Position numbers and translations under genes: made by a program
Part shown: positions 3,553 to 37,270 of the stretch, one piece after another
Position numbering within the stretch: position 1 is the stretch's first letter
Layout: the number at the start of each line of letters is the position of its first letter
IMG/VR virus record: IMGVR_UViG_3300007344_000076
Span: 1-38,054 of that record
DNA length: 38,054 nt
DNA from: a virus
Reading direction: 5' to 3' (one strand)
Notes under the pieces: model-generated
What the model saw: the letters and a program-made list of their open reading frames with translations, nothing else
Databases searched by the model: none
What the model was told of the DNA's origin: nothing

Positions 3553-6500
3553 TTAGTTACCGTAGTCGATAATGTCCTGTAATCCGTTGGGGGTACGAGC
3601 AAAGCGGGCATTAGCACCAGCCTGTTCGATCTCAGCGTCAAGTTCAGGGTCTTCCTGCCTCAGTAAGCGTAAGGCTTGGTCTCTAGCAGCCCTAACCTCC
3701 TGAGTAACCAGCCTATAGAAGTACTGATTCTCCTTGGTGACACGGCTACCAGCGTTGAGTTCAGCTTTATACTGCTCAACGGACTCATCAAACTTAGGAT
3801 GAAGCATCAACCGCTTCAGGTTCTTATAGAGATTGGTCTCACTCATCAGCTGTTGGATACGTGTGATCTGTTCAGCTGTTAATTTGACCCCACCAACCTC
3901 CTTAACGATGTCTGAGGAGTTAAACTCAATGTCCATCAGCTTGTCCCGTACGGGATCCTGGGTTCGTTGAACGACACGCATGGGCAGTAAGGCATTGATA
4001 CCACCAGATGGTGCGTCAATTGTCTGTCCATCGAGGTAGTCATAGGACACAGAGCCAGGGCGGGCAAGGCCAGCCGAAGCTGAGTTAATTAGACGATCAA
4101 ACTCGTTGTTGAACTCCTGCATGTAGGGCATCAGACCATTAGAGATAGCCCGACGAAGGCCAGATGCAGGAAGGAAGTTGTTGGCGACCTCAAGAGGAAT
4201 TATACCAATACGCTCAAGGGAGCGGGTTGACCTGGGGTTAAGCAGGTTACCAAGAGGAGCAAGTCCCTGAAGGAAGCTACGGTCAGTCAGGTTGGTTGAG
4301 ATGGCGTACATCATATAACCTGAAAGGTATTTAGCCCTGTCTTCCTCGAGTTTACCACTCTTGAAGGCGTAGTGGATGTCTGCAACAGCACTAAGGATCT
4401 GCCCAAAAGGCTCGAGCCTGTCCATAGACAGGAAGTTGCCATCAGGGAGCCTGATAGAGCGAGGTTGATTTGTCTTCAACCACTCTTTACGCTGACGTGG
4501 GTCAGACGGTCCGTTACCAGTGATGCGACCCTCATGGGCAGCAAGACCTCCCAGCAGCATGACCATCGATCCAAAGGCCAAACGACCCTTCATGATAGCC
4601 TTCTGATAGGGATCAGCAGTAGGATCCAGTAGAACATCCCTAGACTCCTTCAATGCTAAGTTGAGTACAGGTACGTGAGTACCCGTGTAGACCATGATGT
4701 TGTGTCCAGTCTTCACAAAGGGGAAGAAGATACGTAGGGCAGGGGCATTGTCAATGAATGTGGCGAATGAACCCACAGCACCTTTTAGTTCAGTCTGGAA
4801 TGTGACTTCCTTAGCAGCTGTAAGGAGCTCTTCGTTGAGGACGTTACCAGAGCTGGTGAAGTTGCGACTATATTCGGACTTCAGCAGGCTCTCAAAGGTC
4901 TCCTGCAGGTTATTAGCTCCTAAGCTGGACTGATCGATTGCCTTCTCCATCATCTTACGGTTAAACTCCATACGAGTCACCATAGTCTTGAAGAACTCAT
5001 CTGAAGTTGTCAGGAGTCTTGAGGGAAGAGACAGTAAGGGGTTGTCTGCCAGGCCAGCCAGCATGTTCACAAACCCAACACCAAACTTCTCAGCTTGAGT
5101 ACCAGAGTCAGCAATGTCTGCAGTGATCTCAGCAAGCTCACGAGTGAATTGGGACTCTTGAACCATCTTGGATCCAGAAGTCACGGGCTCATTGAGCTTA
5201 AACGACTGCCCAGCTAGCTCTGCTGCATCACCAATGGTCGTGAGGAAGTTGTGGTAGGAGGCTAAGGCTGCCTTCTGAGTCCTCTTGTCACCACCAGCAA
5301 GGGCAGTGAGAGGCCGATAAACCGTATTGAAAGCGTTCGATAGGGTGTTGACCAAGTGGGTTGTTGGGCTGGACAGCATCGAGTTGTACATGATGCTGAA
5401 GGCCTTACCAATGGCGATCTTCTTGAGGCCTACAGAAGTTCCCACGATCTTAGCTGGGTTACCCTTAAACAGTTCGAGCTGCTTAGCCACACGAAGGGCC
5501 TCAGTACGAGCTTTAGGGTCGCCAGACTCAATACCCTTGACCATTTCATCCAGCAACTCATCAGTCTTCTGGATGTTCTGAGCCAACTCATCCACCGTAC
5601 GGACGGGAGGAAGGTCTTTTAGGTCTAAACCAAGCTCAGGAACCTCAATTTTATATGTAGAGAGGTACTTACTATAGGCATTGGCACTAGTTTTATGGAT
5701 TCTGAGCAAAGCCTTGAGCTGATCCGCCATATTCTTGAGCTGGTTGGTAGCATCAAGACCCTGCTGGGACATGGTGTTAGCCTTGAAGGCTGAATCACCA
5801 ATGGCATTAGCCGTCTCAGTCATCAGAGTGCGGACCTGAACGATGCCTGCACGGGACAGGAGTACGTCATCGCCCACCTGTTGAGTCAGGATCTTCGAGA
5901 AGTCGATGTCACCTGTAGCTCCGAGGGCATCTTGAATGGCTAAACCAGCCTGACGAGTCACATCATCCACAGTCATGTTGGCCTGCCTGGCGAGCTGATC
6001 CACACTGATGGGTGTGTCCCTCACAAAGTTACGTAGGACCGTCTCACCAGCCTCAGAGGTGGCTTGAGAGAGGATGTGCAGCTGAGCATCAGTAACAGAG
6101 CGCTGTGCAGGAGCACCATCAATGAAGGGGGTGTTGTCTGCGATCAGCTGTTGGACTGCTGCCCTCTCTACGGGGACGGTCTGGACCTCAGTAGGGGTGC
6201 TGAAGGGGGACCGAGTGTTGTTGAACTTGGTGTTGAGAAGACGGTCCTTACCACCAGTGGGGATGTAGTTAAAGCCCTCTACATCAAACACACCCTCTTG
6301 ATCAAACAGGTGGCCCAGGAAGCGTGCCTCATTGACATCAGGGACGATACGGGATAGCTCAACCACAGTCTTACCTGTGATCTCAGACTTCCAAGCACCT
6401 AGGAACACATCCTCTCGTGAAAGGGCTGTACGGTTCTGGGAGATGAAGGTTGCAACAGCATCCTCGGAGAAGTCTTCTAGCTTGGCACCATCGATGGCCA

Positions 6501-17962: not shown

Positions 17963-17978
17963 AGCCTCTGACGGGGCT
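17963..17978 (-). other. Second hairpin of the capsid-side tRNA-like unit
   Basis: AGCC and GGCT arms (minus strand) enclose an 8-nt loop. It begins 3 nt after the end of the tRNA-like minihelix at 17982-18037. That matches the arrangement in the three units at 35.9, 36.6 and 37.2 kb, where a second hairpin follows after 2-3 nt. It is weaker than those. Confidence 0.45.
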
Positions 17979-17981
17979 AAT

Positions 17982-18037
17982 AACTAGAGGGGGAATCGAA
18001 CCCCCACCCCCATTACAGGAGGTCTCCAGACCTAGCA
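17982..18037 (-). other. tRNA-like acceptor/T-arm element (E4) between scaffold and capsid genes
   Basis: The minus strand has a perfect T-arm, GGGGG-TTCGATT-CCCCC, whose loop fits the TTCRANY consensus. The 7 nt after it (TCTAGTT) can pair 6 of 7 with TGCTAGG 25 nt upstream of the T-arm, counting two G-U pairs. D and anticodon arms are missing, so this is not a normal tRNA gene. The 5' strand lies in the last codons of the scaffold gene and the scaffold stop is in the connector. Three similar elements occur in the right part of the window. Confidence 0.6.
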
Positions 18038-31184: not shown

Positions 31185-31205
31185 GCGGTTGAACTCTCGT
31201 GGTTG
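31185..31205 (-). promoter_or_regulatory. Leader motif copy D (ACCACGAGAGTTCAA)
   Basis: The 15-base motif shared with three other gene starts lies here, but with 8-10 extra bases (TTATCACC) before ATG 31175. A hairpin lies 12 nt upstream (31216-31239: CTCTG/CAGAG arms, loop containing GACATTGA) inside the end of the previous gene. In the other copies the hairpin lies 9-11 nt upstream. GAGAG could serve as a weak ribosome binding site, but the conservation extends well beyond it. Confidence 0.65.
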
Positions 31206-35689: not shown

Positions 35690-35839
35690 TCAGCTAGCAG
35701 GGAAACAGTAGGTGACCTTGTGGAACTTGTAGCCTAGGGTCTGAAGATCAACCACAGCCTGAACAGCAGAGGAGCTGATGACAGGGACGGTTTCTTCGTT
35801 GCCGTACTTGTTCCGGAAGGTGACTCGATAGGTTGTCAT
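35690..35839 (-). CDS. 49-residue protein downstream of tRNA-like unit E2
   Basis: ATG at 35839, TGA at 35690. Sequence MTTYRVTFRNKYGNEETVPV, then SSSAVQAVVDLQTLGYKFHK, a strand-turn-strand-helix-strand plan. It is the first gene after the E2 minihelix, hairpin and leader motif, with the leader ending right at the ATG. Similar in layout to the products at 33948-34109 and 35112-35264. Confidence 0.7.
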   Translation of the reverse strand: MTTYRVTFRNKYGNEETVPVISSSAVQAVVDLQTLGYKFHKVTYCFPAS

Positions 35840-35859
35840 GGTGCTTGAACTCTCGTGGT
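35840..35859 (-). promoter_or_regulatory. Leader motif copy B (ACCACGAGAGTTCAAGCACC)
   Basis: Twenty bases directly before ATG 35839, identical to copy C before ATG 36549. The upstream hairpin (35871-35887) lies 11 nt away. Identity over 20 bases between unrelated genes means the block is under its own constraint, as part of a promoter leader, a processing product or a translation enhancer. Confidence 0.75.
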
Positions 35860-35870
35860 AGATGGATCAA

Positions 35871-35887
35871 TGCCCAACTAGTGGGCA
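35871..35887 (-). other. Second hairpin of tRNA-like unit E2
   Basis: TGCCCA-CTAGT-TGGGCA (minus strand), six pairs with a 5-nt loop, starting 3 nt after the minihelix end and 31 nt before ATG 35839. It is followed by TTGATCC. TTGGGCA also matches the first half of the promoter I recall for Syn5 RNA polymerase, so this could double as a promoter; unverified. Confidence 0.65.
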
Positions 35888-35890
35888 ATG

Positions 35891-35937
35891 ACCAGGGAGT
35901 GGATTCGATCCACTAGCATCACGCCTGTTCCCCTGGC
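35891..35937 (-). other. tRNA-like acceptor/T-arm minihelix E2
   Basis: On the minus strand GCCAGGG pairs with CCCTGGT over 7 positions (first pair G-U). Directly inside the 3' strand sits a 5-bp, 7-nt-loop T-arm, AGTGG-ATCGAAT-CCACT. A 16-nt connector replaces D and anticodon arms. The element starts 9 nt after the stop codon of the 36549 gene. An alternative pairing of TGACCA (at the stop) with TGGTCA also exists. E3 has the same 7-16-5-7-5-7 layout. Confidence 0.7.
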
Positions 35938-35946
35938 TAGTGATGG

Positions 35947-36549
35947 TCACTTAGTGACGCCATGGATGCGGCGCCAAGCAACCCAGGTGATGGCCTGCAG
36001 GCTGGCTGCTGTCATGCCCAACTCATCTGCTGCATGCTGATAATCATCCTTGATCTGAGCGCGGAGTTTCTTCCCGATAGCCGGCACGTCCGCGAGGCCT
36101 GTGCGCTCACCTGCCCAAATGCAGTAGGCGTGACCGTCGATGCAGACGTCAGCAATGCCCTGGATGCAGCTATAGAACTCCTGAAGCTTAGGGCCCGACA
36201 GGATGGCCAGTACGTCAGCATCAGTCAGCACGCCAGCAGTCAGGATCCTAATGGCCTTGGCCTTGTTGGCTCCGAAGGTGCATACCTTGGTGAGCATGGC
36301 CTGTTCAGCCCCGCCAGCCTGGAATGCTGTGATCAGAGCGTCAGCGTCTTGCACGTTACGCTCCCAGCGGTTACGGGGTGATAGGGCAGCGATGACGCCA
36401 GCGGCTTCGGCAGGGTGGATGCCGTGGCGGTCTGCAAGGTTGCGGGCGATCTGGCGAGCGTTAGGGTACCAATTAATCCCGTCTTGCTCCTCAACTAGAG
36501 AGGCTAGTTGATAGATGGCCTTGATGTTGTCGATGTTGTTGCGAGCCAT
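35947..36549 (-). CDS. 200-residue HhH/DNA-glycosylase-like conserved protein
   Basis: Start at ATG 36549 directly after leader copy C. All-helical: AAGVIAALSPRNRWERNVQD, TFGANKAKAIRIL, SGPKLQEFYSCIQG, VCIDGHAYCIWAG, then VPAIGKKLRAQI and WVAWRRIHG. Phages and plasmids often carry proteins of this pattern (ALSP...W..N, then a conserved D.HA segment), which look like the helical core of HhH-GPD base-excision enzymes. The catalytic Lys/Asp cannot be fixed by eye. Possible role: DNA repair or modification removal. The largest protein of the small-gene region. Confidence 0.65.
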   Translation of the reverse strand: MARNNIDNIKAIYQLASLVEEQDGINWYPNARQIARNLADRHGIHPAEAAGVIAALSPRNRWERNVQDADALITAFQAGGAEQAMLTKVCTFGANKAKAIRILTAGVLTDADVLAILSGPKLQEFYSCIQGIADVCIDGHAYCIWAGERTGLADVPAIGKKLRAQIKDDYQHAADELGMTAASLQAITWVAWRRIHGVTK

Positions 36550-36569
36550 GGTGCTTGAACTCTCGTGGT
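36550..36569 (-). promoter_or_regulatory. Leader motif copy C (ACCACGAGAGTTCAAGCACC)
   Basis: Identical over 20 bases to copy B and placed directly before ATG 36549. The hairpin at 36580-36602 lies 10 nt upstream. Base changes in copies A and D fall at the same positions (C to T, G to C, A to G near the 3' end). Confidence 0.75.
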
Positions 36570-36579
36570 GATGTAATGA

Positions 36580-36602
36580 TGCCCCTATCAATATAAGGGG
36601 CA
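36580..36602 (-). other. Second hairpin of tRNA-like unit E3
   Basis: Arms TGCCCCT and AGGGGCA (7 bp) with a 9-nt AT-rich loop, starting 2 nt after minihelix E3 and 30 nt before ATG 36549. No T-run follows. It has the strongest stem of the three second hairpins; its arms start TGCCC, as in E2. Confidence 0.7.
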
Positions 36603-36604
36603 AT

Positions 36605-36651
36605 ATCTGGCCAGGGGTTTGCACCCCGGCACCCGCTTTAACGGATCAGAC
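36605..36651 (-). other. tRNA-like acceptor/T-arm minihelix E3
   Basis: Minus strand: GTCTGAT pairs with GCCAGAT over 7 positions with one A-C mismatch and two G-U pairs. T-arm CGGGG-TGCAAAC-CCCTG has five pairs and a 7-nt loop. The connector is 16 nt, the same as in E2. The 5' strand contains the stop codon of the preceding gene, so RNA structure and gene end overlap. Confidence 0.65.
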
Positions 36652-36969
36652 GAAGTTAGCGTTGACCTCAGTGGTGAGGACCATTACGCTTTCCTGGTTG
36701 GCGGCTTCCTTGTAAGCCCTAGCCATCTCGTAGATGGCGTCGCTGGCCTTACCGGTATCGATGAGGACCTCGATAACCGTGGTTGGCTCAGTGATGGTGT
36801 GAGTCCCATTGAAATGGGCCCATTGGCCTGTGGCCTCGATGACCGTATGGCCTAGTGGGAAGAACTGAGCAGCCAAGCGGCGGGCTGTCTTGCCGTTGCG
36901 CTCGAGGTCGAGCTCGTTGAAGCAGCCATCCTGAGGACGTTGGCCACAGTAGATACGGAACAGTTTCAT
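36646..36969 (-). CDS. 107-residue protein, function unknown
   Basis: Start at ATG 36969, 13 nt after the previous stop. The sequence (MKLFRIYCGQRPQDGCFNEL, later PLGHTVIEATGQW, TTVIEVLID) suggests an alpha/beta domain with two Cys near the N-terminus. The last residues overlap tRNA-like element E3. No family recognised. The upstream sequence lacks the ACCACGAGAG leader, so it is probably translated from the message of the 37168 gene. Confidence 0.65.
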   Translation of the reverse strand: MKLFRIYCGQRPQDGCFNELDLERNGKTARRLAAQFFPLGHTVIEATGQWAHFNGTHTITEPTTVIEVLIDTGKASDAIYEMARAYKEAANQESVMVLTTEVNANFV

Positions 36970-36982
36970 GGTGATGATGACC

Positions 36983-37168
36983 TCAGAAGTGTTGTTCGTT
37001 GTTTTCCTGGGCGATGCTGACCCAGCGATAGAGCTCTTCTCGAGCCTTATCAGCCAGCCAGCCATCCTCCTTAGCATCCCAGAGCAAGGCGTTAGCCTGG
37101 CAGATGTGGATGCGGTTTTCGGGGTGGCTTAAGTAAGCCCTGACTCGTTCCCTGGTGGTTGCTTTCAT
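36983..37168 (-). CDS. 61-residue helical protein downstream of tRNA-like unit E1
   Basis: ATG at 37168 right after leader copy A. It encodes MKATTRERVRAYLSHPENRI then a long helical region (ANALLWDAKEDGWLADKARE) and WVSIAQENNEQHF. Mixed charge, likely a small helical bundle. First gene of a two-gene unit with 36646-36969. Function unknown. Confidence 0.7.
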   Translation of the reverse strand: MKATTRERVRAYLSHPENRIHICQANALLWDAKEDGWLADKAREELYRWVSIAQENNEQHF

Positions 37169-37190
37169 GGCGGTTAAACTCTCGTGGTTG
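37169..37190 (-). promoter_or_regulatory. Leader motif copy A (ACCACGAGAGTTTAA)
   Basis: Leader directly before ATG 37168, differing from copies B/C at three positions near the 3' end. CAACCACGAGAGTTTA is repeated exactly inside DNA polymerase at 27075-27090. The hairpin at 37198-37214 lies 9 nt upstream. Confidence 0.7.
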
Positions 37191-37197
37191 GAAGGAC

Positions 37198-37214
37198 TGA
37201 CTCAATGCCAGTCA
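37198..37214 (-). other. Second hairpin of tRNA-like unit E1
   Basis: TGACT-GGCATTG-AGTCA (minus strand), five pairs and a 7-nt loop, 2 nt after minihelix E1 and 29 nt before ATG 37168. The loop GGCATTG resembles the GACATTGA loop of the hairpin at 31216-31239 and the GGGCATTGA that ends the E2 hairpin. Confidence 0.6.
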
Positions 37215-37216
37215 AT

Positions 37217-37270
37217 GAGATGAGCTGGTTTCGAACCACAGCCATTCCTGTCTAGGAGCTGACCCATCTC
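37217..37270 (-). other. tRNA-like acceptor/T-arm minihelix E1
   Basis: Minus strand: GAGATGG pairs with TCATCTC over all seven positions (one G-U). The T-arm has loop TTCGAAA and a stem GC(TG)TGG/CCAGC with a 2-nt bulge. The connector (21 nt) folds into TCCT-AGAC-AGGA. No anticodon arm. The 5' strand starts 12 nt after the stop of the 37282-37611 frame. Confidence 0.65.

Follow-up and report, generated by a model that had tools for sequence, protein, structure and literature searches.

Mini-tRNA-like elements without an anticodon arm at gene boundaries of cyanophages: putative mRNA cut signals for host tRNA maturation enzymes

Introduction

In organelles, RNase P and RNase Z excise the tRNA folds that separate genes on a long transcript, and this frees the messages. 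The early message of phage T7 is processed at long RNase III hairpins. In the tRNA-like RNAs of MHV68, which carry microRNA hairpins, and in MALAT1/mascRNA, a tRNA-like fold stands beside a hairpin or a transcript end and is cut by RNase P and RNase Z. The cyanophage elements described here can be compared with each of these systems. Organelle punctuation uses real tRNAs, whereas the cyanophage elements lack an anticodon arm and their cleavage is predicted. Like the T7 RNase III sites, they are folds at the early-gene boundaries of a T7-like phage message, but they form a three-armed tRNA mimic where T7 has long hairpins. The MHV68 and MALAT1/mascRNA folds are eukaryotic and more fully tRNA-like, and to our knowledge they have no sequence relation to the cyanophage elements. 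RNase P sites in E. coli operons resemble the proposed cyanophage sites in that the enzyme acts on polycistronic mRNA, although we know of no conserved tRNA-elbow family among them. The cleavage of E. coli operon mRNAs by RNase P is credited to Li and Altman (2003), as cited in PMC11143913. Minihelix model substrates of RNase P likewise stack an acceptor stem on a T-stem closed by a T-loop; these are synthetic, whereas the cyanophage elements are natural and carry a D-arm equivalent (PMC11143913).

The first reading of the sequence knew of no description of the arrangement, and this agrees with the present search: no report describing them was found in open-access papers, and Rfam 15 at its gathering score has no family at the elements, nor did a relaxed search of the E1–E3 region return one. 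tRNA-like structures as such are already known; what is new, as far as checked, is a recurrent, anticodon-less element at mRNA junctions of phages and bacteria.

Elements in the window

The window is a virus record of 38 kb (38,054 nucleotides), the whole stretch of DNA analysed here. Its genes are read on the minus strand and include a T7-like RNA polymerase, a primase/helicase and a DNA polymerase; the closest match is Synechococcus phage P60, whose capsid protein is 94% identical. An earlier note, made from the sequence alone, had described three repeated units on the minus strand, and all three (E1, E2 and E3) are confirmed by sequence, descriptor and shuffle controls. They occupy gaps between small early genes. 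A fourth copy (E4) was found with a descriptor combining the T-loop and a 12-bp stack. The features, all on the minus strand, are as follows.

37217-37270, minus: E1, mini-tRNA-like element; 7-bp acceptor, CAGC..GCUG third arm, T-arm loop UUCGAAA
37216, minus: E1 discriminator A
37195-37213, minus: E1 second hairpin, GACUGG-CAUUGAG-UCAGUC
37174-37187, minus: E1 shared leader CCACGAGAGTTTAA, preceding the ATG at 37168
36605-36651, minus: E2, mini-tRNA-like element; 5-bp acceptor, AUCCG-UUAAAG-CGGGU arm, 7-bp T-stem, loop UGCAAAC
36604, minus: E2 discriminator A
36580-36602, minus: E2 second hairpin, UGCCCCU..AGGGGCA
36555-36568, minus: E2 shared leader CCACGAGAGTTCAA, preceding the ATG at 36549
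35891-35937, minus: E3, mini-tRNA-like element; 7-bp acceptor GCCAGGG/CCCUGGU, T-arm loop AUCGAAU
35890, minus: E3 discriminator C
35871-35887, minus: E3 second hairpin, UGCCCA..UGGGCA
35845-35858, minus: E3 shared leader CCACGAGAGTTCAA, preceding the ATG at 35839
17982-18031, minus: E4, copy in the capsid gene leader; T-arm GGGGG-UUCGAUU-CCCCC
17963-17978, minus: E4 weak second hairpin AGCC..GGCU, read from the sequence

In E1–E3 the order is constant: an acceptor-like stem with a T-arm closed by a 7-nt T-loop (TTCGAAA, TGCAAAC and ATCGAAT, respectively, as DNA), then ATTG, a hairpin, the leader CCACGAGAGTTyAA and the ATG. The connector is 16 nt in both E2 and E3, as had been claimed. E2 is better drawn with a 5-bp acceptor, an AUCCG(UUAAAG)CGGGU arm and a 7-bp T-stem, which leaves the total at 12 bp. 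The element had further been said to lack both D and anticodon arms; the anticodon arm is indeed missing, while a D-arm equivalent is present as a third arm inside the connector; in E3 this arm is weak, but E1 and E2 show it clearly. The tRNA-like helices are partly imperfect in E1, E2 and E4. Three of the five T-stem pairs form in E1, and the 5′ strand of the E4 acceptor is uncertain. E4 overlaps the end of the scaffold ORF.

The sequence CACGAGAGT occurs eight times in the window against 0.44 expected, with minus-strand sites at 31189-31202, 33973, 34711, 35849, 36559 and 37178. It corresponds in part to the leader ahead of start codons and is also present where there is no tRNA-like element. 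A scan of viral contigs for the exact leader returned unrelated sequence and one near-identical contig.

The elements are not tRNA genes, in agreement with the earlier note. ARAGORN predicts no tRNA in the window or at the elements of its relatives, the sole exception among the loci scanned being a tRNA-Gly in phage NATL1A-7, and it predicts no tmRNA with a tag peptide; a complete cloverleaf with an anticodon arm was not found at the elements. Two sequence patterns were discarded as markers of the family: many matches to GGATCGAATCC...TTGCC do not form the element fold, and many matches to GGTTCRANYCC...ATTGCC are ordinary tRNAs. The sequence ATTGGGCACCCGTAA, which we take to be the promoter of the Syn5 RNA polymerase, is absent at the elements. 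In Syn5 it is found only at 4929 and 44797 (L088:4929-4943 and 44797-44811), one of these copies being inside the RNA polymerase gene.

Structure and covariation

The element consists of an acceptor-like stem, a third arm equivalent to the D-arm, and a T-arm with a 7-nt T-loop, without an anticodon arm. A long imperfect double-stranded hairpin of the T7 RNase III type was not found at the elements, whose fold is three-armed. Because a first alignment of mixed types had misaligned the 5′ strands, pairs were counted on an ungapped set of 75 aligned E2-type elements, in which the search pattern had constrained nothing but the third arm and the upper part of the T-arm. In this set, 94.8% of cells in the free acceptor and lower T-stem pairs are paired, and the free helices contain 218 double-changed cells compared with 53 in shuffles. 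The covariation score is 0.489 against 0.132 in shuffles, and the signal is destroyed by sliding the partner strand. The suggestion that structure is kept while bases change is thereby borne out by compensatory changes in relatives. A second set of 44 ATC-type elements was selected without an acceptor criterion; 39 of them pair six or seven of the seven acceptor positions, but shuffled acceptors reach 45% because many copies share stems, so this set is weaker evidence.

Together the T-stem and acceptor span 12 bp, as in tRNA. The division between the two varies (5+7, 6+6 or 7+5) while the sum stays at 12 in phage and host copies alike, a sum that the descriptor itself imposed on part of the set. 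Tested separately on E2-type elements, pair 12 forms in 63/78 and pair 13 in 15/78, the latter at the level predicted from composition; the helix ends at pair 12, and a 13th pair is not conserved. The last two loop bases of the third arm also change together with T-loop positions 55–56 (AG-GC, AA-GU and GG-UC) in 21 cases compiled by hand; this rule does not plainly hold in ATC-type elements, in the capsid copies of S-CBP3 and S-RIP1, or in E1 and E4. In this the third arm behaves like a D-arm, with signs of a tRNA-like elbow. With the 12-bp stack, the elbow covariation and the tRNA-Gly at the same site in NATL1A-7, mimicry of tRNA has more support than the earlier note had claimed.

Distribution in phages

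When run on 21 cyanopodovirus genomes (0.96 Mb), the descriptor returned 33 matches on the coding strand and two on the other strand, compared with three to six in dinucleotide shuffles; with a stricter cut the numbers were 17, zero and zero to two. The elements are not due to chance. Eighteen of the 33 coding-strand matches are located inside the 7% of sequence beyond a rough ORF mask, and about 24 of the 33 are at gene boundaries when compared by eye with annotation tables, the same placement as in the window. Most of the 21 genomes have copies in early-gene gaps and ahead of the capsid gene. Phage S-CBP42 has five in early gaps, with acceptor stems that include CCACCTA/TAGGTGG, CCAGCAG/CTGCTGG and CCACTTG/CAAGTGG. 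Gap copies are also found in Syn5, S-TIP28, S-CBP2, S-CBP3, P-SSP7, P-SSP2, P-SSP10, S-TIP37, S-RIP1, S-RIP2, S-SBP1 and NATL1A-7. In many of these phages a copy is present in the pre-capsid gap, which in NATL1A-7 holds a complete tRNA-Gly instead (annotated, and predicted by ARAGORN).

Beyond these genomes, a pattern derived from E2 has matches in at least 119 viral contigs. Two of the larger contigs checked (86 and 52 kb) resemble S-EIV1, an unrelated phage that is not classified among the T7-like phages; S-EIV1 itself carries two copies, both at gene boundaries. In T7 and roseophage SIO1 no copy was found, either on the coding strand with the descriptor or with model R1. E1–E3 are members of an extensive and apparently undescribed family of cis-acting cyanophage RNAs, which is widespread in viruses of marine and freshwater cyanobacteria.

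Of 95 E2-type copies in phages, 81 have A as the discriminator; the next bases are mostly TTG and in no copy CCA. A CCA-less 3′ end after an unpaired discriminator, a feature of RNase Z substrates, is present. A hairpin of at least 5 bp begins within 7 nt in 82 of 96 such copies, compared with 16% in shuffles. No T run follows the phage copies that were read. In most phage cases a start codon is located 35–55 nt past the element, and the genes downstream are diverse. The apical loop of the second hairpin is often CANUGAG, a motif common to distant phages (window, 37207; P-SSP7, 1055 and 2614; P-SSP10, 35966 and 35272; S-CBP2, 1090 and 1333; P-SSP2, 8634).

Copies in host genomes

A scan with the E2 pattern of 84,980 bacterial and archaeal species, one genome per species, gave three matches, all in cyanobacterial records and two of them in Prochlorococcus. 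Model R1 gave about 38 good matches in 201 Cyanobiaceae genomes, normally one per genome; its weak matches (E above about 1e-4), found in large genomes of the family, lack the fold and look like chance. Most of the host copies examined stand behind one and the same conserved, unnamed gene (MSQLTIKLSAKADALIAQLQKEIFNRRRKK...), 7–21 nt past its stop codon; no Pfam or NCBIfam match was found in the one copy of the gene tested. At L454:4426-4998 and at loci L459-L485 this conserved picocyanobacterial gene (MSQLTIKLSAKADALIAQLQK...) has the element directly behind its stop codon.

In most cases there is no gene directly behind the host copy, and a hairpin follows these stop-codon copies at a frequency of 0.38 against 0.27 by chance, which is little excess. 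Four larger Cyanobiaceae genomes have the element elsewhere, ahead of a shared gene, and there a hairpin follows it in 4/4; these copies (L458, L463, L464 and L466, around position 1500) have the T-loop UGUGA or UGUAA and an arm loop ending in AA. By eye, the shared downstream gene appears DUF932-like, and the upstream gene in two of the four appears ArdC-like. The second hairpin therefore accompanies a downstream gene.

Proposed mechanism and alternatives

The elements are probably mini-tRNA cut signals that split the polycistronic phage mRNA by means of host tRNA maturation enzymes, a reading to which we assign a probability of roughly 0.62. The fold, the 12-bp stack, the elbow covariation, the placement and the following hairpin are observed; among the mechanisms considered, punctuation of the mRNA by host RNase P, RNase Z or both has the best support, with recognition and cleavage as its predicted steps. 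The element would be transcribed within the polycistronic message and fold as an anticodon-less mini-tRNA, which the host tRNA maturation machinery would mistake for a CCA-less pre-tRNA. The likeliest cut would be made by RNase Z directly past the discriminator base, and a cut by RNase P on the 5′ side of the acceptor, before position 1, may also occur. The upstream message would then end in a compact tRNA-like fold, while the downstream message would have its new 5′ end a few bases ahead of the second hairpin, by which this end might be shielded. Bacterial RNase P cuts model hairpins consisting of acceptor, T-stem and T-loop (PMC11143913), and RNase Z cleaves CCA-less pre-tRNA after N73 (PMC3161902), so the proposed enzymology is plausible. 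On minimal substrates, E. coli RNase P reportedly depends on CCA (PMC5723415); this tips the balance towards RNase Z, or else towards a cyanobacterial RNase P unlike the E. coli enzyme. The imperfect helices of E1, E2 and E4 and the elements that depart from the elbow rule also weigh against the reading. The interpretation in the earlier note, which had likewise proposed cutting at a tRNA mimic, is partly supported overall: both the compensatory changes and the gene-boundary placement that it had asked for in relatives were found.

An alternative is that the fold stabilises 3′ ends, blocking 3′–5′ exonucleases and marking the end of the upstream message, with any cutting left to another nuclease such as RNase E or RNase III. 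The host copies that stand directly behind a stop codon, most of which lack a second hairpin, fit this, as does the replacement of the element by the class B hairpins described below; the kept T-loop, the elbow and the exact 12 bp are left unexplained, and we regard a pure stabiliser as unlikely. Somewhat less probable is excision of the element as a stable small RNA that has its own function, for example as a decoy for a host tRNA enzyme, its boundary position being secondary. The compact, self-contained fold and the several copies per genome would suit such an RNA, but in phages the distance to the second hairpin and start codon behind the element is near-constant, and one host copy follows a single gene. 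The 35–55 nt between element and start codon in most phage cases could also indicate that the leader binds or senses a protein or ligand and in this way controls how the following gene is translated; with such diverse downstream genes, and most host copies having no gene directly behind them, we consider this improbable. A DNA signal, either phage promoter or transcription terminator, would be consistent with inverted repeats at gene boundaries, one of which, as in T7, precedes the capsid gene, but is very improbable given that bases change while pairing is kept, that the Syn5 promoter sequence is elsewhere, and that no T run follows the phage copies read. Decayed tRNA genes or attachment sites, which the integrases of some relatives and the complete tRNA-Gly of NATL1A-7 might bring to mind, are equally improbable for elements that occur several per genome with differing sequences and conserved structure, none detected by ARAGORN, and are contradicted for the family by covariation, although the element may possibly descend from a tRNA.

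Cutting by host tRNA maturation enzymes may extend beyond the window and its relatives. It seems slightly better than an even chance that unrelated picocyanobacterial phages and at least one host gene share anticodon-less mini-tRNAs as general mRNA cut sites for these enzymes. If so, tRNA punctuation would apply to ordinary bacterial messages, with mimics replacing tRNAs, and the cut signal would be common to phages and host chromosomes. It would also show that phages can swap the RNase III strategy of T7 for tRNA mimicry, and that the upper half of a tRNA, elbow included, works as a portable mRNA cut signal. As natural and minimal candidate substrates of RNase P and RNase Z the elements would be ready to hand, and they would form a new RNA family in viruses that are very abundant.

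Class B hairpins

A second type of structure, class B, is found in the capsid leader of phages SS120-1, S-CBP1, DSL-LC07, S-SRP01, S-CBP4, P-SSP10, S-B28 and S-RIP2, and in more than 60 viral contigs (L108-L224). Class B is a hairpin whose loop reads CACCUCAGAGUCGGA, with one base changed in DSL-LC07; its stem covaries and reaches up to 9 bp, and in most cases a similar hairpin of the ATTGGC type comes next (examples of class B at L093:20956-20988, L091:35262-35294 and L103:16596-16628); class B has no Rfam 15 match. P-SSP10 and S-RIP2 have both types: the tRNA-like element (class A) occupies early gaps, and a class B hairpin precedes the capsid gene. At L053:4878-4910 a class B hairpin fills an early gap. 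Their position suggests that class B hairpins are a functional substitute for the tRNA-like element, and since they take the same place in some phages, the likeness to tRNA may not be essential. Matches to the Glutamine-II riboswitch are found in the psbA-capsid region of cyanopodoviruses (L093:20690-20773, L094:20522-20575 and L103:17722-17777).
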